36,539 nucleotides of DNA, taken from a virus. The translations under genes and the position numbers were made by a program. Shown here piece after piece: positions 1,407 to 24,127 of the stretch. The stretch spans positions 1-36,539 of the IMG/VR virus record IMGVR_UViG_3300025687_000016; one strand, written 5' to 3'. The notes beneath the pieces were generated by a model that was not told the DNA's origin, ran no database searches, and saw only the letters and a list, made by a program, of their open reading frames with translations. How positions within the stretch are numbered: position 1 is the stretch's first letter; the number at the start of each line of letters is the position of its first letter.

Positions 1407-2378
1407 ATGCTAGGCTTTCACCCTCTCGCCTCTGCCCCGCTTGGCGATGATGGGGTTTTGGCCCAAAACTTTGTAGACGCCGCCGCAGTTGTTTCCTGCG
1501 CTGCTACTGTCAGCGCGACGGCTGAAGTTGCGCAGTATGTAGACGCCGCCGCGACTGCCGCTTGCGCTGCTACTGTCAGCGCAACGGCCTTCGCCACAAG
1601 ATCTGCCGCCGCGACTGCCGCTTGCGCTGCGACTGTCACGGCCGCTGCCGGCATCAACCAGCCTGCCTCTGCCACAGCCTCCTGCGCCGCGACTGTCACG
1701 GCTGCGGCGCAGGTCGTGCAGTTTATTAATGCCGCTGCGGCTGTATCGTGCACATCCAGTGCCACGGCTGCTGCAGAGGTTGTTCAGTTCGTCAGCGCGG
1801 CAGCCGTTGCGAGCTGCGCTGCGACTGTCACGGCTGATGTCATCCGCATTCGGCAGGGCGCCTCACTGGTAAGTTGCTCTGCGACTGTCAGCGCAACGGC
1901 TGGTGTCAATCAGCCGGCTGCGGCAACTGTGTCTTGCGCCGCGACTGTAACTGCCAGCGCGCGCAACGTCAGGACGGCAGACGCGGCCGCGTCATGCGCT
2001 GCGACCGTCACGGCTTCGGCGGATCGGCTCAAGGACGGTGCGGCGGCCGCAAGCTGCGCGGCCACTGTCACTGCCGCGGCAAAGCGCACGCGGAATGTTG
2101 TTAGCCTGGTGCAGCCGGCCGCAACTGTCAGCGCGTCTGCGCAGCTTGAGGCTGTTGGCGCCGCCACGGCGGCTTGCGCTGTGGTTGTGTCGGTTGACTT
2201 CACGCGGACGACAAAGGGCGCGGCTTTGGTTTCGTGCGCCAGCAGCGCAACCGCCAGCGCGCGCTATAAGTGGGAGACCCAGCCGGACACCGGCGAGACA
2301 TGGGTCGAGCAATCTGATACAAGTGAAATCTGGACGCCGCAAAGCGATACGGCGGAAACCTGGACGGAGGCCGCGTAA
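1407..2378 (+). CDS. Ala-rich protein with 13 Cys-punctuated repeats (putative tail fibre component)
   Basis: The protein has 323 residues. From about residue 30 to 287 it is a tandem array of units of about 20 or 22 residues, each beginning with a variant of S-C-A-A-T-V-T-A. Cys occupies the second position in nearly every unit; one unit reads Q-P-A-A-T-V. A short C-terminal array of about 10-residue units follows, W-x-x-Q-x-D-T-x-E-x. Even unit lengths and alternating small and beta-branched residues suggest a stacked beta-fold (inference). I do not recognise a family. Its place between the APC-type protein and another repeat-rich fibre protein argues for a virion surface fibre. Its stop overlaps the next start (TAATG). 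Confidence 0.7.
   Translation: MLGFHPLASAPLGDDGVLAQNFVDAAAVVSCAATVSATAEVAQYVDAAATAACAATVSATAFATRSAAATAACAATVTAAAGINQPASATASCAATVTAAAQVVQFINAAAAVSCTSSATAAAEVVQFVSAAAVASCAATVTADVIRIRQGASLVSCSATVSATAGVNQPAAATVSCAATVTASARNVRTADAAASCAATVTASADRLKDGAAAASCAATVTAAAKRTRNVVSLVQPAATVSASAQLEAVGAATAACAVVVSVDFTRTTKGAALVSCASSATASARYKWETQPDTGETWVEQSDTSEIWTPQSDTAETWTEAA
1494..2268 (+). repeat. Coding tandem repeat, 60- and 66-bp units
   Basis: About 13 imperfect units encode the S-C-A-A-T-V-T-A motif. At DNA level the conserved core is TGCGCYGCNACTGTCA. Units differ by multiples of 6 bp, so residue parity is kept. The array produces long spurious open frames on the opposite strand. Confidence 0.85.
2271..2375 (+). 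repeat. Coding repeat, ~30-bp units (W-x-x-Q-x-D-T)
   Basis: Three and a half units of about ten codons encode W-x-x-Q-[PS]-D-T-[GSA]-E at the C-terminus of the Ala-rich repeat protein. They resemble short linker or trimerisation repeats in phage fibre proteins, but no function can be read from them. Confidence 0.7.
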
Positions 2379-2929
2379 TGGCTACGACGACTACTTACAG
2401 CCTCGAGAAGCCGACAGTCGGCGGCTCGGAAAATACTTGGGGCACCGACTGGAACAACAACGCCGACAAGATTGACGATCTGCTCGACGGCACCACCGCC
2501 ATCAAGCCAAACCTTGACGAGGGGTTGTGGGAAGTCGGCGGGGTGGCGGTTACGGCAACCGCAGCCGAGTTGAACATTCTGGACGGTGTGACGGCCAGCA
2601 CGGCGGAGCTGAATATCCTTGACGGGGTGACGGCTACCACTGCGGAGCTGAACATTCTGGATGGCGTGACGGCTACCGCTGCGGAAATCAACTTGCTTGA
2701 TGGCTCCGTGGCGAACACTGTAGTAAACGACAAGGCTGTTGTTTACGGCTCATCTGGTGAGGTCCAAGCGGTTACTGTCCAAGCGGTAACCATCGATCTT
2801 GGAGACTGGACCATTTCGCAATCTGGCTCTGACTTGAAGTTCTCCTACGGTGGTGTTGCCAGATTTAAATTGACTTCCACAGGCGATCTTACTGTTGAAG
2901 GAAACATCACTGCGTATGGGAGCGCATAA
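2378..2929 (+). CDS. Tail fibre protein with AELNILDGVT repeats
   Basis: The protein has 183 residues. It starts with a segment mentioning G-S-E-N-T-W-G-T-D-W-N-N-N-A-D-K, common at the start of phage fibre proteins. From about residue 60 to 108 it has four copies of A-[EST]-A-E-[LI]-N-[IL]-L-D-G, a repeat frequent in tail fibres of marine and freshwater phages. The C-terminal part is strand-rich. It overlaps the preceding stop by one base (TAATG), which suggests coupled translation within the fibre cassette. Role in host attachment is inferred from family and position. Confidence 0.8.
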   Translation: MATTTTYSLEKPTVGGSENTWGTDWNNNADKIDDLLDGTTAIKPNLDEGLWEVGGVAVTATAAELNILDGVTASTAELNILDGVTATTAELNILDGVTATAAEINLLDGSVANTVVNDKAVVYGSSGEVQAVTVQAVTIDLGDWTISQSGSDLKFSYGGVARFKLTSTGDLTVEGNITAYGSA

Positions 2930-2932
2930 ATT

Positions 2933-3805
2933 ATGGCCCTGCCGAGTTCCGGCGCAATCGCGCTTTCTGATATTCAGACTGAGTTTGGCGGCGTAAACCC
3001 CATCTCTATCAGTGAGTATTACAGAGGAACAAGTGTTGGGCTTGTGACCTTCACCAACGACACAAACTCCAATGCCAACATCCCTACGTCTCCCGGTAGC
3101 ACAATCTCTTGGAGCAACTTTTATGGCGCCAAAGTTGGATACCCTACCATTGTTGACAAGACTAACAAGGCCACTGGCGGCACAGGATCGCCACTGTCCA
3201 TAACAGTGCCTGCATCAAGACAGTCTGGAGACATTCTGCTTCTTGTGTCCGCGCACTCCTATTACAATTTTGATTACCCCTCTGGTTATGGCCCTACGCC
3301 TACTACTGGATGGACTAGAATATACGACTTGACTGCTAAGGATGACTTTGAAAGCCCTAACTTTGTGGCTTGGTGGAAAGTTTCTGACGGAACAGAGACA
3401 AGCGTTTCCTACACCACGTCTGGCTCAAGCAATAACTCCACATGTGCGGCAGTTTTTGTCATCAGGGGTGTCAACACAACAACACCGTTTCAAAGCACGG
3501 CTGCCATAACGAGGGCATATAACACAACAAGCACTATTAGTTTCGGCAGCGTCACGCCAAGCTACAAGGGTGGTTTGCTTCTGTGTCTTGCTGCCCAAGG
3601 TAGCACTGGCGCCATTACAACAGCGGGCGTCACACAGAATATCAGCAACTTTTCAGCAAGCGACTACAGGGATATACGTCTTGCATATGGCACATACCCC
3701 GTTGGAACAGCACAAAGTATCGGCTCCGCGTTTACCCCTTCCTCTTGGGGGGGCAGCTCCGCACACGCGGCGGTATCGTTTTCACTTTTGATACAACCAA
3801 AGTAG
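2933..3805 (+). CDS. Tail protein, putative fibre or tip
   Basis: The protein has 290 residues. The N-terminus (L-P-S-S-G-A-I-A-L-S-D-I-Q-T-E-F-G-G) followed by I-S-I-S-E-Y-Y-R-G and later I-S-W-S-N-F-Y-G-A is a known N-terminal module of phage tail proteins. The remaining ~220 residues are Ser/Thr/Gly-rich and strand-like, with no motif I can name. Base composition is noticeably AT-richer than head genes, like the propeller gene at 64, which fits a horizontally exchanged receptor-binding module. It is the last complete gene of the fibre cassette. Confidence 0.72.
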   Translation: MALPSSGAIALSDIQTEFGGVNPISISEYYRGTSVGLVTFTNDTNSNANIPTSPGSTISWSNFYGAKVGYPTIVDKTNKATGGTGSPLSITVPASRQSGDILLLVSAHSYYNFDYPSGYGPTPTTGWTRIYDLTAKDDFESPNFVAWWKVSDGTETSVSYTTSGSSNNSTCAAVFVIRGVNTTTPFQSTAAITRAYNTTSTISFGSVTPSYKGGLLLCLAAQGSTGAITTAGVTQNISNFSASDYRDIRLAYGTYPVGTAQSIGSAFTPSSWGGSSAHAAVSFSLLIQPK

Positions 3806-3814
3806 GTCGGCGTC

Positions 3815-3868
3815 ATGAGTAGCATTGTGTTAAAACCAGATGTGACTTGGCCAGCCAAACCGGAGTAA
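3815..3868 (+). pseudogene. 17-codon remnant resembling the end of the APC-type gene
   Basis: This short open frame starts with ATG at 3815 and ends V-T-W-P-A-K-P-E-stop. The last eight codons nearly match the end of the APC-like gene (V-T-W-P-T-K-P-E at 1377-1403), and the following bases also agree (CGGAGTAA, then CCGATGC). It looks like the leftover C-terminus of a second APC gene whose body was lost when the fibre cassette was exchanged. It could instead be a translated mini-ORF with no function. Confidence 0.5.
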
Positions 3869-3872
3869 GCCG

Positions 3873-5348
3873 ATGCCACTGATCCCGCTCAAAATCCCGC
3901 CGGGTGTCTACCGCAACGGCACCGATCTAGAGAGTTCTGGCCGCTGGCGGGATGCCTCGCTGGTCCGCTGGCGCAACGGCAGCCTGCGCCCAGTTGGCGG
4001 CTGGCGCGTGCGGAAGGAAAACGCATTCGGCGGCGTCACGCGCGGGATGCACTCGTGGCAGGAAAACAGCGGCAGCCGCTGGGTTGCGGCAGGCTCGCAC
4101 GACAGCCTGTATGTGATGACAAGCGGGAACACCGTCACAGACATCACGCCCGCGACGCTGTCGGCTGGTAATGTGGACGCAACGCTCAACACCGGCTATG
4201 GCGGCGCGTTCTACGGCTTTGGGTTTTACGGCAACCCCACCGTCGGGTCTAGCATTTACGCCGAGGCGACAACTTGGAGCCTCGACAACTGGGGCGAATA
4301 TCTTGTGGCCTGCAATCCGCAGGATGGCGTGATCTGGGAGTGGCAGTTGAATACTGCCAACAACGCTGCGGCTGTTGCGAATGCGCCGGTAGACAATCTC
4401 GGCATCGTCGTGACCGAGGAGCGGTTTCTGTTTGCCCTTGGCGCTGGCGGCGATCCGCGCAAGGTGCAGTGGTCGGATCGGGAAGATAACACGACCTGGA
4501 CGCCTGCCGCGACAAACGAGGCCGGCGACATCACGCTGCAGGGCAGCGGACAGATCATGGCTGGCATCAGGACGCGCGGGCAGACGCTGATCCTGACGGA
4601 TCAGGACGCGCACGCGGCGGTGTATCAGGGTCCGCCCTTTGTCTACGGCTTTGAGCGCGTCGGAACGGCCTGCGGCTTGGTCGCGCGTAAGGCGGTCGCG
4701 TCGGTTGACCAGGGCGTGTTCTGGATGGGCCGTAACGCCTTCCACTACTATGACGGCTCCACAGTCCGAGAGCTTCCATGCGAGGTCCATGACTACATCT
4801 TTGGCGACATCAACAACGCGCAGATCAGCAAGGCTTGGGCGCTTTCCTTCGGCACCGAGGGTGAGGTCTGGTGGTTTTATCCGTCCAGCGCATCGCTCGA
4901 GTGTGATCGGTATGTGGTCTACGACTACAAGGCCAACTACTGGGTGATCGGCACGCTGGCCCGCAGCTCCGGCATTCCGCGCGGCGTGTTCCAATACCCG
5001 ATGATGGTGGACACCGGAAACGAGCTTTACGAGCACGAGGTCGGCTTCAACTACGACAGCGCCAGCATCTTTGCTGAGAGCGGCCCGATCAGCCTGGGCA
5101 ACGGTGATCAGGTCATGCAAGTTACCGACTTGATCCCTGACGAGCAGACGCAGGGCCAAGTGACAACCACATTCAAGACCCGTTTCCACCCAAATGACAC
5201 CGAGCGGTCGTATGGGCCATACACGATGGCCAACCCGACCAGCGTCAGATTTACCGGGCGGCAGGTGCGAATGCGGATCAACGGCACGGCCGCAGACTGG
5301 CGCGTGGGCGTCATGCGGGTTGACGCTAAGCCCGGTGGCCAGCGGTGA
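3873..5348 (+). CDS. Tail nozzle/stabilisation-type protein (putative)
   Basis: The protein has 491 residues and starts with M-P-L-I-P-L-K-I-P-P-G-V-Y-R-N-G-T-D, then G-R-W-R-D-A-S-L-V-R-W-R-N-G-x-L-R-P-V-G-G-W. This opening is typical of the large strand-rich tail proteins of podoviruses that form the nozzle below the neck (P22 gp10/T7 gp12 role). The body alternates strands and Trp/Tyr-rich turns, consistent with a propeller-like ring subunit. Position between fibre genes and ejection proteins supports a core tail role. Assignment is by length, opening motif and context rather than a definitive domain match. Confidence 0.65.
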   Translation: MPLIPLKIPPGVYRNGTDLESSGRWRDASLVRWRNGSLRPVGGWRVRKENAFGGVTRGMHSWQENSGSRWVAAGSHDSLYVMTSGNTVTDITPATLSAGNVDATLNTGYGGAFYGFGFYGNPTVGSSIYAEATTWSLDNWGEYLVACNPQDGVIWEWQLNTANNAAAVANAPVDNLGIVVTEERFLFALGAGGDPRKVQWSDREDNTTWTPAATNEAGDITLQGSGQIMAGIRTRGQTLILTDQDAHAAVYQGPPFVYGFERVGTACGLVARKAVASVDQGVFWMGRNAFHYYDGSTVRELPCEVHDYIFGDINNAQISKAWALSFGTEGEVWWFYPSSASLECDRYVVYDYKANYWVIGTLARSSGIPRGVFQYPMMVDTGNELYEHEVGFNYDSASIFAESGPISLGNGDQVMQVTDLIPDEQTQGQVTTTFKTRFHPNDTERSYGPYTMANPTSVRFTGRQVRMRINGTAADWRVGVMRVDAKPGGQR

Positions 5349-21696: not shown

Positions 21697-21970
21697 CATT
21701 CTGCGGCGTTAGTTTTGTCTGAGCCGCCCTGTGGTGGTGCTGCTACGGCTGTATGGGAGTCCAGCCGCCGAGCGCCGGGAGCGCCAGCAGCACCTCCAGA
21801 GCGCGGCCGTGGTATCAATCGGTTGTCAGATGACCCGCATGGACCGCTTCTTGCCTGCGCCACAGCCCGAAGCTGGCCGCGCTCAACTGGTCCGTCCTCT
21901 CCTGCGGACACCACGCCGGTTCCTCCCCCGGCACAACTGGACCGGCGCCGCAACGCGCCGGTCTTTTTTT
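21697..21970 (+). ncRNA. Candidate structured RNA ending in an intrinsic terminator
   Basis: About 240 bases between the leftward promoter and the terminator hold no convincing gene. They contain nested inverted repeats: GGTGCTGCT pairs with AGCAGCACC, and inside it CGGCTG pairs with CAGCCG. A 6-bp hairpin (GCCGCA/TGCGGC) lies at the left edge. The rightward terminator at 21940 has no upstream rightward protein gene to serve, so a short RNA made from here is a simple explanation. A weak TTGCCG-N16-TAGTTT promoter is possible at about 21688-21715. Alternatives are a decayed gene or a terminator guarding against read-through. Confidence 0.35.
21940..21970 (+). terminator. Strong rho-independent terminator
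   Basis: A perfect 9-bp stem GACCGGCGC/GCGCCGGTC with loop CGCAAC is followed directly by seven T residues. It lies only five bases upstream of the rightward early promoter, so it would isolate that promoter from upstream transcription. Confidence 0.9.
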
Positions 21971-21975
21971 ATCGC

Positions 21976-22005
21976 TTGACATTGCGCCTCCGCAAAGCGT
22001 AGCGT
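21976..22005 (+). promoter_or_regulatory. Rightward early promoter
   Basis: A perfect -35 box TTGACA (21976-21981) is followed, 18 bases later, by a weak -10 (TAGCGT). Dyad O3 fills the spacer and dyad O4 overlaps the -10. A poor -10 inside operators suggests activation or tight repression. Transcription would begin about 20 bases before the HTH gene at 22031. Confidence 0.55.
21982..21995. promoter_or_regulatory. Operator-like dyad O3 (TTGCG-CCTC-CGCAA)
   Basis: A perfect 5+5 inverted repeat with a 4-base centre lies between the -35 and -10 of the rightward promoter. It defines the consensus for the other three sites in the control region. Confidence 0.65.
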
Positions 22006-22013
22006 TGGCGCAA
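22000..22013. promoter_or_regulatory. Operator-like dyad O4 (TAGCG-TTGG-CGCAA)
   Basis: Nine of ten half-site bases match the consensus. It starts 18 bp after O3 and overlaps the -10 and start region of the rightward promoter. Confidence 0.5.
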
Positions 22014-22030
22014 ATCACAACGAGGGTAGC

Positions 22031-22204
22031 ATGGTCTACACGATAACAGAGCTGAAAAGCGTCCTCGACGGTCGGCCGCTGAAGGAAATTGCAGAGCATA
22101 CAGGCATCCACCACACGACGCTCTGGCGGCTGTGGCGCGGGCAGCAGGAAGCCCGCGAAGGCACGCTGGTCAAGCTGACCGACTTCGTGCAGGGGCGCGG
22201 GTGA
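22031..22204 (+). CDS. Small helix-turn-helix protein (Cro-like candidate regulator)
   Basis: The protein has 57 residues. Residues ~15-35 form a helix-turn-helix: R-P-L-K-E-I-A-E-H-T-G-I-H-H-T-T-L-W-R-L-W-R-G, as in Cro/CI-type proteins. It is the first gene of the rightward operon, right behind four operator-like dyads, so autoregulation and repression of the leftward promoter are likely (inference). A GAGGG site precedes the ATG, and the stop overlaps the methyltransferase ATG (TGATG). Confidence 0.75.
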   Translation: MVYTITELKSVLDGRPLKEIAEHTGIHHTTLWRLWRGQQEAREGTLVKLTDFVQGRG

Positions 22205-23550
22205 TGGTCGCCTACTACAACGAGATCGACAAGAACGCGGCGGCATGGCTGCGCGAGCTTATCAAGCAGGGCCACATTGCGCCGGGAGACGTGGATGAAC
22301 GAGACATTCGGGACATCAAGCCAACTGAGCTGGCTGGATATGCTCAGTGCCACTTCTTCGCAGGGATCGGCGGCTGGAGCCTCGCCCTGCGCCTCGCAGG
22401 ATGGCCAGACGACCGTCCTGTTTGGACGGGATCATGCCCTTGCCAGCCTTTCAGCGCGGCAGGCGCAAGAGGCGGGATGTCTGATGAGCGGCACCTCTGG
22501 CCGCACTGGCACCACCTCATCAGCCAGTGCCGCCCTGCAACAGTCTTTGGCGAGCAAGTTGCAAGCAAAGACGGCCTCGGCTGGCTCGACCTTGTATCGG
22601 CTGACATGGAAGCAACGGGATACGCCTTCGCGGCAGAAGATATATGCGCTGCGGGCGTCGGCGCCCCGCACATCAGACAGCGCCTCTGGTTTGTCGGGCT
22701 GGAACACCCCCAGAGCAACGGACGGGACCAACGGCGGACCCAATCAATCGGGCGGGGCGTTGCCAGCGGATGCGGCGCTCTCGGGCTGGCCGACGCCGAT
22801 AGTGAACGACACAACGGGATCAACACACTGCTACAACGGCAAGAACCCGGACGGGACAAACAAGATCGCGTTGAAACTGCCGGGAGCGGCGAAGCTTGCA
22901 GGCCCAGCCCGACTAACGGCTTCTGGGGAGATGCTGACTGGCTCTACTGCCGGGATGGAAAGTGGCGGCCAGTTGAACCCGCTTCACAGCGCATGGCTAA
23001 TGGGTTATCCTTGTGTTTGGGATCAATGCGCGGAGCGTGCATTGGCGAACAAGAGGAACCGTTAAATGCCAAGGAAGCCATTAGATTTGGGCGCAAAGCC
23101 TTGCAAGTGCTGCGGGGATTTGATGACCCGGAAGCGTTTTGGCTCTCGGTTGGAGGACGCATCGGCTTTCCGCAAGCGACGTTTCTGCTCGCTGTCATGT
23201 GCAAATACTCGCGGGAATTGGGGATCATCACCGACAGCGAAACGTCGTGCGGCGAACAAGATGGCCAAGCCTTTTTGCGAGCGTTGCGGGGACGCGCATC
23301 ACAAACTTCACGTTCACCACAAGGATCAGAATGTTCAGAACAATTCACTAAAGAACTTGGAGACGCTTTGTCCAAGTTGTCACAAGATAGCGCACAACAC
23401 AGGGAACTTATGACATCTTTGGCAAGCTACACGGCTGGGCCTCTGGCGCAAGGAACCAGCAACAGAGTGGGACGACTGCGCGGTTACGGCAATGCCATCG
23501 TCCCGCAAGTCGCGGCAACGTGGATCGAAGCAGTGATGGAGTGCGCATGA
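22204..23550 (+). CDS. DNA cytosine-5 methyltransferase with a large insertion before motif X
   Basis: The protein has 448 residues from ATG 22204 (overlap TGATG with the HTH gene; the longer frame start at 22132 is unnecessary). Motif I is F52-A-G-I-G-G, motif IV G-S-C-P-C80-Q-P-F with catalytic Cys80, motif VI G-E117-Q-V, motif VIII P-H-I-R-Q-R, and motif X G427-Y-G-N-A-I-V-P-Q. All are intact, so it is probably active and protects phage DNA or alters host methylation. Phage enzymes of this type usually have about 280-330 residues. The excess of ~150 residues lies between the W-R-P-V-E-P segment and motif X, exactly where another frame encodes an HNH protein. The frame stays open through it. 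Confidence 0.85.
22295..23065 (+). CDS. Frame-2 ORF nested in the methyltransferase gene
   Basis: The frame encodes 256 residues from ATG 22295, with GGGAG eight bases upstream. It is Ser/Ala/Thr-rich in the first half, has [20 protein letters not shown] and [10 protein letters not shown], and ends with [16 protein letters not shown] then W-D-Q-C-A. That ending matches small phage proteins often deposited beside methyltransferase genes. Much of that similarity can arise because both frames share the same DNA, so it may be a conserved shadow. However, it has its own stop, start and ribosome site, and the stop abuts the HNH start (TAAATG). Confidence 0.45.
23066..23413 (+). CDS. HNH endonuclease nested in the methyltransferase gene
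   Basis: The protein has 115 residues. It has two zinc-ribbon-like Cys pairs (C-K-C-C near residue 14 and C-S-L-S-C near 44), then C-E-R-C-G, the HNH core H-V-H-H-K-D-Q-N with [10 protein letters not shown], and C-P-S-C-H-K-I-A-H. This is a canonical HNH homing-type nuclease. The ATG follows directly after the frame-2 stop, with AAGAGGAAC upstream. It lies entirely inside the frame-1 methyltransferase ORF, so it is read in a different frame from its host gene. It may nick DNA and spread the insertion. Confidence 0.82.
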   Translation: MPRKPLDLGAKPCKCCGDLMTRKRFGSRLEDASAFRKRRFCSLSCANTRGNWGSSPTAKRRAANKMAKPFCERCGDAHHKLHVHHKDQNVQNNSLKNLETLCPSCHKIAHNTGNL

Positions 23551-23885
23551 TGGGCGGCAAGGCATCACGCGACAAGGGCGCCAGCTACGAGCGCGAGATC
23601 GTCAACTGGCACAAGGCACGCGGCGTGCCGGCCGAGCGCATCCCGCTGTCTGGGGCCGTGAAGGGCAACTACGCCGGCGACCTGAAGATCGGGCCGACGC
23701 TGGGGCTGGTGGCAGAGTGCAAGCGCCGCGCCCGCGGCTTCGGCACGCTCTACGCTGCTTTGGAGCAAGACAACAGCGACCTGCTGTTCGTCAGAGACGA
23801 CCGCAAGGAAACCTTGGTAGTGCTGCCGCTGCAGACCTACGAGGCAATTTTGGACTGGTTGAAGTGGACCAAAGGAGAGGAATGA
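23547..23885 (+). CDS. PD-(D/E)XK nuclease, Holliday-junction-resolvase-like (putative)
   Basis: The protein has 112 residues from ATG 23547, overlapping the methyltransferase stop (ATGA). It has S-R-D-K-G-A-S-Y-E-R-E-I-V, then P-L-S-G-A-x-x-G-N-Y-A-G-D-L-K and L-V-A-E-C-K-R-R-A. The E ... G-D ... E-x-K pattern is that of small PD-(D/E)XK phage nucleases. It would resolve or trim branched replication products. Its end overlaps the next gene (ATGATG). Confidence 0.75.
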   Translation: MMGGKASRDKGASYEREIVNWHKARGVPAERIPLSGAVKGNYAGDLKIGPTLGLVAECKRRARGFGTLYAALEQDNSDLLFVRDDRKETLVVLPLQTYEAILDWLKWTKGEE

Positions 23886-24127
23886 TGCAAGTTGAAACCA
23901 TACGCCGTGCGATCGGCCAAATCTCGGACGCAGCCGACATGCTGGAAGCCGCCCTGCGCCGTGCGCAGGATCTGCTGCAAGATGATGAATGCCCGAAGCC
24001 CTATGAGCAGTGGGACGAATACGCCGAGCAGGCAGGCTTTGCGGCTGGCGAGATCAACTGCGGCGATTTTGGGCAGCAAGTGACCGCCACAATCGACGCG
24101 CTTGAGCTGCTGGCGCGGGAGGTGTGA
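23882..24127 (+). CDS. Small helical early protein
   Basis: The protein has 81 residues from ATG 23882, overlapping the nuclease stop. It reads V-E-T-I-R-R-A-I-G-Q-I-S-D-A-A-D-M-L-E-A-A-L, then E-Q-W-D-E-Y-A-E-Q-A-G-F and A-T-I-D-A-L-E-L-L-A-R-E-V. It is almost wholly alpha-helical. The function is unknown. It is followed by a similarly sized gene of related layout. Confidence 0.65.
   Translation: MMQVETIRRAIGQISDAADMLEAALRRAQDLLQDDECPKPYEQWDEYAEQAGFAAGEINCGDFGQQVTATIDALELLAREV

Follow-up and report, generated by a model that had tools for sequence, protein, structure and literature searches.

A likely homing-type HNH gene nested out of frame in a phage C5-cytosine methyltransferase gene, at a junction shared with a third overlapping gene

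A phage C5-cytosine DNA methyltransferase gene has been found to contain, in its +1 frame, an HNH endonuclease gene, inserted at a site where a further gene, called ORF-A here, also overlaps the methyltransferase. The locus lies in the window, i.e., the whole analyzed stretch of 36,539 nucleotides (positions 1 to 36,539 of IMG/VR virus record IMGVR_UViG_3300025687_000016), a contig of phage origin which also encodes a terminase, a primase/helicase and structural proteins. We consider it likely that this locus is a frame-transparent homing-type element. Its features, all located on the same strand, are the following.

22204..23550, + strand: C5-cytosine DNA methyltransferase, the host gene (448 aa; PF00145, phrog_363; conserved motifs, with 150 additional codons before motif X)
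22295..23065, + strand: ORF-A (256 aa), overprinted in the methyltransferase +1 frame (phrog_1008/phrog_31772; a TTG start at 22277 is possible)
22972..23037, + strand: 5' copy of a duplicated 22-codon junction; ORF-A frame kept (LNPxxSxWLMGYPxxWDxC), methyltransferase frame degenerate
23018..23033, + strand: best-preserved part of the duplication, 5' copy, TGGGATCAATGCGCGG
23051..23058, + strand: Shine-Dalgarno-like site of the HNH gene, AAGAGGAA, with 9 nt between GAGG and ATG
23063..23068, + strand: TAAATG, the ORF-A stop followed by the HNH start in the same frame
23066..23413, + strand: HNH endonuclease (115 aa; PF01844), an N-terminal Zn-ribbon (CxxC...CSLSC) followed by the HNH core (CERCG...)
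23422..23487, + strand: 3' copy of that junction, at an offset of exactly 450 nt; methyltransferase frame kept, ORF-A frame degenerate
23468..23483, + strand: 3' counterpart, TGGGACGACTGCGCGG, 13/16 identical at a spacing of 450; presumably part of the target site, it encodes the start of motif X
23547..23885, + strand: PDDEXK / Holliday-junction-resolvase-like gene, a neighbor outside the element whose start overlaps the methyltransferase stop by 4 nt

The methyltransferase matches both PF00145 (E 1.2e-13) and phrog_363 (7e-83). From the letters alone, a sequence-only reading had proposed that the enzyme keeps motifs I, IV, VI, VIII and X and carries some 150 extra codons before the last of them, coinciding with the HNH gene. 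Motifs I (FFAGIGGW), IV (PCQPFSAAG), VI (GEQV), VIII (QRLWFVG) and X (GNAIVPQVA) indeed all fall in invariant or conserved columns, while the distance from CRDGKxRP (CRDGKWRP in the window) to the GN of motif X is 172 codons in the window versus 22 in 58 empty-site relatives (43 distinct junction sequences). The excess is thus exactly 150 codons, and the +1 frame of this added stretch encodes the HNH protein. The same 58 relatives are the homologues which that reading had suggested looking for, lacking about 450 bp between the W-R-P-V-E-P segment and motif X. Clean pairs of occupied and empty sites were obtained at the DNA level by comparing two occupied loci, L008 and L010, with the empty locus L122, and a Staphylococcus phage allele devoid of the insert is 525 nt (3x175) shorter, this pair aligning poorly through the variable region. 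Taken together with the absence of host-frame stops reported below, these comparisons largely uphold the proposal that an HNH gene landed in the methyltransferase gene in another frame. Presence of the insert is patchy, most relatives carrying the methyltransferase alone: among the best 80 IMG/VR methyltransferase relatives, an insert of the window's size was found in three (L099, L100 and L106). Depending on the methyltransferase subfamily, the insertion point precedes motif X, precedes motif IX or falls between the two. The AlphaFold2 model of the methyltransferase (mean pLDDT 43) is too poor to place the linker as a surface loop or to judge its tolerance.

The HNH gene is in the methyltransferase +1 register (862 mod 3 = 1) and its product scores above the cut-off of PF01844. 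Its AlphaFold2 model has a mean pLDDT of 86.5 and, among 33 HNH homologues, residues H84, H85, N92, N93, N97, H106 and H110, along with the Zn cysteines, are invariant or nearly so. A fold search with this model returned weak HNH matches only, including 4h9d, 6ghc and 1u3e, none at E<=0.001. The translations agree with the arrangement first read from the sequence, namely a 256-residue ORF in frame 2, a TAAATG junction and then an HNH gene with its own ribosome site, AAGAGGAA preceding the start codon. Such ribosome sites recur in the family: 30 of 38 HNH starts, versus 23% of control ATGs, are preceded at a suitable distance by an anti-Shine-Dalgarno match of 4 nt or more, as are 22 of the 28 HNH starts for which a single start is possible. 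Stop/start junctions like TAAATG are found in many relatives, and translational coupling of ORF-A and HNH is possible. Outside phages, a plasmid search gave no match, bacterial genomes yielded short HNH-core matches only, and 385 genomes of one bacterial class, searched without a positive control, contained no match at E<=1e-15.

Evidence that the host frame is under selection to remain open was provided by permutation of synonymous HNH codons. Across 38 clusters of nested HNH genes, no host-frame stop was observed against 154±9 expected (minimum 125 in 2000 shuffles), in agreement with the earlier proposal that the host frame stayed open. The third frame, used as a control, contained 140 stops against 127 expected and hence no depletion; the contrast between the two frames has a Fisher p of about 5e-45. 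In the window alone, the methyltransferase frame was open in only 0.3% of synonymous HNH shuffles (P 0.003). Conversely, HNH genes that are not nested do contain stops in the corresponding frame: eight in L029, two in L072, and at least one in most of 73 more distant HNH loci. Chance overlap of the frames is rejected by these permutation tests. Within the insert, 51% of the differences between similar HNH genes fall at HNH codon position 3, and the host frame and the unused frame differ little in amino acid identity: the values are 0.40 and 0.39, respectively, for pairs with 60-75% nucleotide identity, and 0.73 and 0.69 for those with 75-97%. It follows that the HNH protein is conserved, while the host frame essentially need only stay open. 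The idea that the HNH coding sequence doubles as a linker of the methyltransferase was therefore right, with no amino acid constraint in the host frame. We also rejected a reading of the long frame-1 stretch as an ancient, conserved domain of the methyltransferase, as it is no better conserved than the unused frame.

ORF-A, which the sequence-only reading had listed simply as a 256-residue ORF, proved to be a real, conserved and widespread overprinted gene. Its frame is uninterrupted in all relatives whose junction could be read and, upon permutation of methyltransferase codons in 19 diverged methyltransferases, it contained no stop against 40±4 expected, whereas the other frame of the same genes contained 139 against 143 expected. 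ORF-A was found by tblastn in 198 phage records, and the record of Xanthomonas phage PhiXhv-5 annotates both the methyltransferase and ORF-A. Since ORF-A overlaps the methyltransferase, the insertion site was already double-coding in the window and in most related hosts.

This double coding is reflected in the junctions of the insert. The extra 150 codons are flanked by TGGGATCAATGCGCGG and TGGGACGACTGCGCGG, which form an imperfect 16-bp direct repeat 450 nt apart and belong to the longer 22-codon duplication. When scored against empty-site profiles, the 5' copy gives 46.6 bits in the ORF-A frame and 5.7 in the methyltransferase frame, while the 3' copy gives 30.4 bits in the methyltransferase frame and 4.4 in the ORF-A frame. 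The same partition, 5' copy for ORF-A and 3' copy for the methyltransferase, was observed in 30 of 30 distinct occupied junctions, which indicates that the first copy supplies the end of ORF-A, the HNH gene comes next and the second copy is where the methyltransferase resumes. Judging from these sequences, the duplication would let both overlapping genes keep an intact end; it needs more than the simple copying of double-strand-break repair. In another C5 methyltransferase subfamily (L035, L037, L052 and L066), an end of the 'LNPxWVExLMGFPxGW' type lies just 5' of the HNH gene.

The architecture is recurrent. Considering the window, two cultured phages and the loci gathered from an alignment of the first HNH relatives, 77 of 79 related HNH genes are wholly or largely inside a longer ORF and in one shared register; because these loci were collected with nested HNHs as seed, the proportion describes this HNH subfamily and not HNH genes in general. 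Clustered at 70% identity, 38 of 40 clusters are nested, with a locus GC content of 33-67%. A methyltransferase match is present in about 70 of the host ORFs, and Pfam analysis of eight further hosts assigned six to PF00145 and one to a terminase intein (L094), one being without a match. The cultured carriers are Komagataeibacter phage phiKX1 (L001) and Staphylococcus phage CUB-EPI_14 (L002), the latter AT-rich (locus 33% GC) and with a different methyltransferase. In the phiKX1 annotation, ORF-A and a C-terminal fragment are listed, and both the full methyltransferase and the nested HNH are missing; in that of CUB-EPI_14, the methyltransferase is listed and the nested HNH is missing.

Other hosts were also encountered. 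Inteins of terminase large subunits hold out-of-frame HNH genes in L094 (host ORF 2228-4966), L231, L233, L234, L238 and L240, and the Pfam Intein_splicing match extends, in the frame of the host, across the stretch that encodes the HNH; for L240, the intein match is below the Pfam cut-off and there is no terminase match. L015 and L017 were judged to be intein hosts solely from their intein-like '...HN|C' ends. An HNH gene is likewise out of frame within an N6/N4 DNA methyltransferase (PF01555) at L220:3101-4291, so the element class is not limited to C5 enzymes.

Comparison of close relatives gives indications of movement. In L007-L011, the HNH genes are identical, and sequences are 100% identical from about 350 nt before the HNH gene (about 100 nt for L008) to 400 nt past its start, while the 5' part of the methyltransferase is only 76-92% identical in comparisons with L010 and L011; in L010, the 3' flank beyond the identical tract is unrelated. 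Such identical tracts in diverged methyltransferases suggest recent transfer and fit gene conversion or homing, although ordinary phage recombination could also have produced them. HNH and host identities correlate (r=0.53), which means that vertical descent contributes as well. Separately, the methyltransferases of L008 and of L007/L009 are identical outside a replaced variable region located about 150-450 nt before the HNH gene, a pattern suggesting that the target-recognition region was swapped.

Based on these observations, the following mechanism can be proposed. A short HNH gene with its own ribosome site would enter the conserved 3' portion of a phage C5 methyltransferase gene, the added length being a multiple of three bases. 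It would be maintained there in the +1 frame, with selection purging all stops from the host frame. The methyltransferase would then be translated through the insert, gaining about 150 residues of unconstrained linker, and would presumably remain active despite the interruption. Where ORF-A is present, the insert carries a diverged duplicate of the junction: ORF-A would terminate within the 5' copy, its stop giving way to the start of the HNH gene, and the methyltransferase would pick up again, at motif X, within the 3' copy. All three products would be made. The HNH enzyme would probably cut the uninterrupted site (around TGGGACGACTGCGCGGTTACGGCAATGCC) in insert-free methyltransferase genes, and repair of this cut would copy the insert across, which would amount to homing.

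Alternative explanations have to be weighed against this homing-type scenario. The insertion could be a relic or a domesticated element, in which the HNH no longer homes but persists as a protein of the phage, or in which the added stretch now serves methyltransferase function. The moderate correlation between HNH and host identities and the persistence of HNH-positive methyltransferases with diverged HNHs are compatible with this possibility, which we nevertheless consider unlikely: purifying selection acts on the HNH frame, whose Zn and catalytic positions show little or no variation among the 33 homologues, the linker frame is devoid of amino acid constraint, presence is patchy and tracts are recently identical. 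It is somewhat more doubtful still that the locus is a nested restriction-modification module, with the HNH restricting or nicking DNA and the surrounding methyltransferase protecting the phage. Hosts are overwhelmingly DNA methyltransferases, and nicking and modification-dependent HNH enzymes figure among the weak fold matches (4h9d, 6ghc). However, closely similar HNHs reside in methyltransferases with different variable regions (L007/L008) and of different subfamilies, most relatives have the methyltransferase without HNH, one HNH member resides in the terminase intein of L094, and the insertion site is a conserved coding motif.

A self-splicing intron or a degenerate intein carrying the HNH, with splicing restoring the host protein, appears very improbable. 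The insert 5' end does resemble its 3' flank, a feature discussed as intron-like for another out-of-frame HNH, that of the ShiLan domain (PMC11855218), but this resemblance is explained by the partitioned duplication of overlapping genes, and the stop-free host frame that selection maintains would be needless for an intron. Moreover, no intron match was obtained in an Rfam scan of positions 21800-23900 with E up to 1 and, in the methyltransferase protein, Pfam matched DNA_methylase alone, no intein or splicing (Hint) domain being found. Finally, the high-GC window does have many spurious long ORFs, which would be in line with chance open frames or a sequencing frameshift; such an artefact is scarcely conceivable given that the architecture recurs in cultured phages (phiKX1, CUB-EPI_14) and in dozens of independent contigs, and it is contradicted by the permutation tests.

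The homing-type reading places the window next to a kind of element that is already known, of which it represents, judging from sequence comparison, an independent family. 'Hidden' out-of-frame HNHs have been described in mycobacteriophage DNA methylases as the ShiLan domain (Gosselin et al., 2023, PMC9957025; Arsenault, Gosselin and Gogarten, 2025, PMC11855218) and also in PMC12613952. In both ShiLan and the window, a phage DNA methylase gene with an uninterrupted frame holds a zinc-finger HNH in a different frame, the distribution is patchy, intron and intein signatures are absent and the 3' flank is copied at the start of the insert. The two differ in register (methylase +2 for the ShiLan HNH, L098, and +1 for the window) and in Pfam family (HNH_3 and HNH, respectively). 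Since a two-sequence BLASTP between the two HNHs gave E 0.074 without aligning the HNH cores, homology is undetectable and they are the same kind of element from separate families. Ribosome sites are present in the window family, whereas the ShiLan authors found none and proposed leaderless initiation (PMC11855218). Unlike ShiLan, the window HNH follows a third overlapping gene, ORF-A, with a duplication split between frames; for ShiLan, the resemblance of the insert start to the 3' flank is reported, and an account by partitioned duplication is absent from that paper (PMC11855218). Pacc40 gp60 similarly has an out-of-frame HNH-like ORF inside a phage methylase gene but is set apart by the paper's description, with a different methylase and insert and an HNH assignment called less certain (PMC11855218). 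Intron-encoded and free-standing HNH homing endonucleases such as I-HmuI likewise have an HNH core and occupy conserved coding sites in phage genes. I-HmuI (1u3e) is a weak fold match and, in contrast to intron-encoded HNHs, the window host frame would be read through, with no intron. Among protein families, phrog_363 and phrog_1008 correspond to the window methyltransferase and ORF-A, but these profiles describe neither the overlap nor the HNH, and records call one gene, the other or both. In the open-licence literature, no earlier description of the triple overlap or of the partitioned duplication was found.

Collectively, these data make it probable that the mobile genes of phages include a broad class of frame-transparent HNH elements, located out of frame in host ORFs kept open by selection, which have entered C5 methyltransferases, the N6/N4 methyltransferase of L220 and terminase inteins (L094, L231, L233, L234, L238 and L240, and L015 and L017 by sequence). 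Where ORF-A is present, insertion would split a double-coding junction by duplication, one copy serving each frame, thus giving three overlapping genes. Splicing is what conceals a mobile endonuclease within introns and inteins, whereas in the present class the concealment appears to lie in the coding itself, and the mobile gene apparently spreads while its host gene stays intact. The examples of the 2025 report came from mycobacteriophages and had no recognizable ribosome sites (PMC11855218); an unrelated HNH family now does likewise in dozens of phages, to which the stop test, the empty sites and cultured examples have been added. The duplication shows how two overlapping genes both survive an insertion, and hidden homing becomes directly testable. 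Nested genes such as the HNHs of phiKX1 and CUB-EPI_14 are missed by annotation pipelines.

Several loci depart from the common arrangement. At L211:3028-4359, an HNH gene is nested in a register other than the usual one, within a 444-aa host ORF without a Pfam match. Among the intein-nested HNHs, L231 and L240 are in a ShiLan-like register and the others in that of the window family. The frames appear exchanged relative to the window in L069, L070, L089 and L039, where an ORF-A-like 'WPTP...LNPxxxxxLMGxPxxW' segment is found in the very ORF that contains the HNH in the usual register. The LNPxxVEWLMGFP-type end of ORF-A resembles the C-terminal segment found in frame in the host ORF of L069, and in L069 and L089 motif X is located downstream within the ORF holding the HNH.
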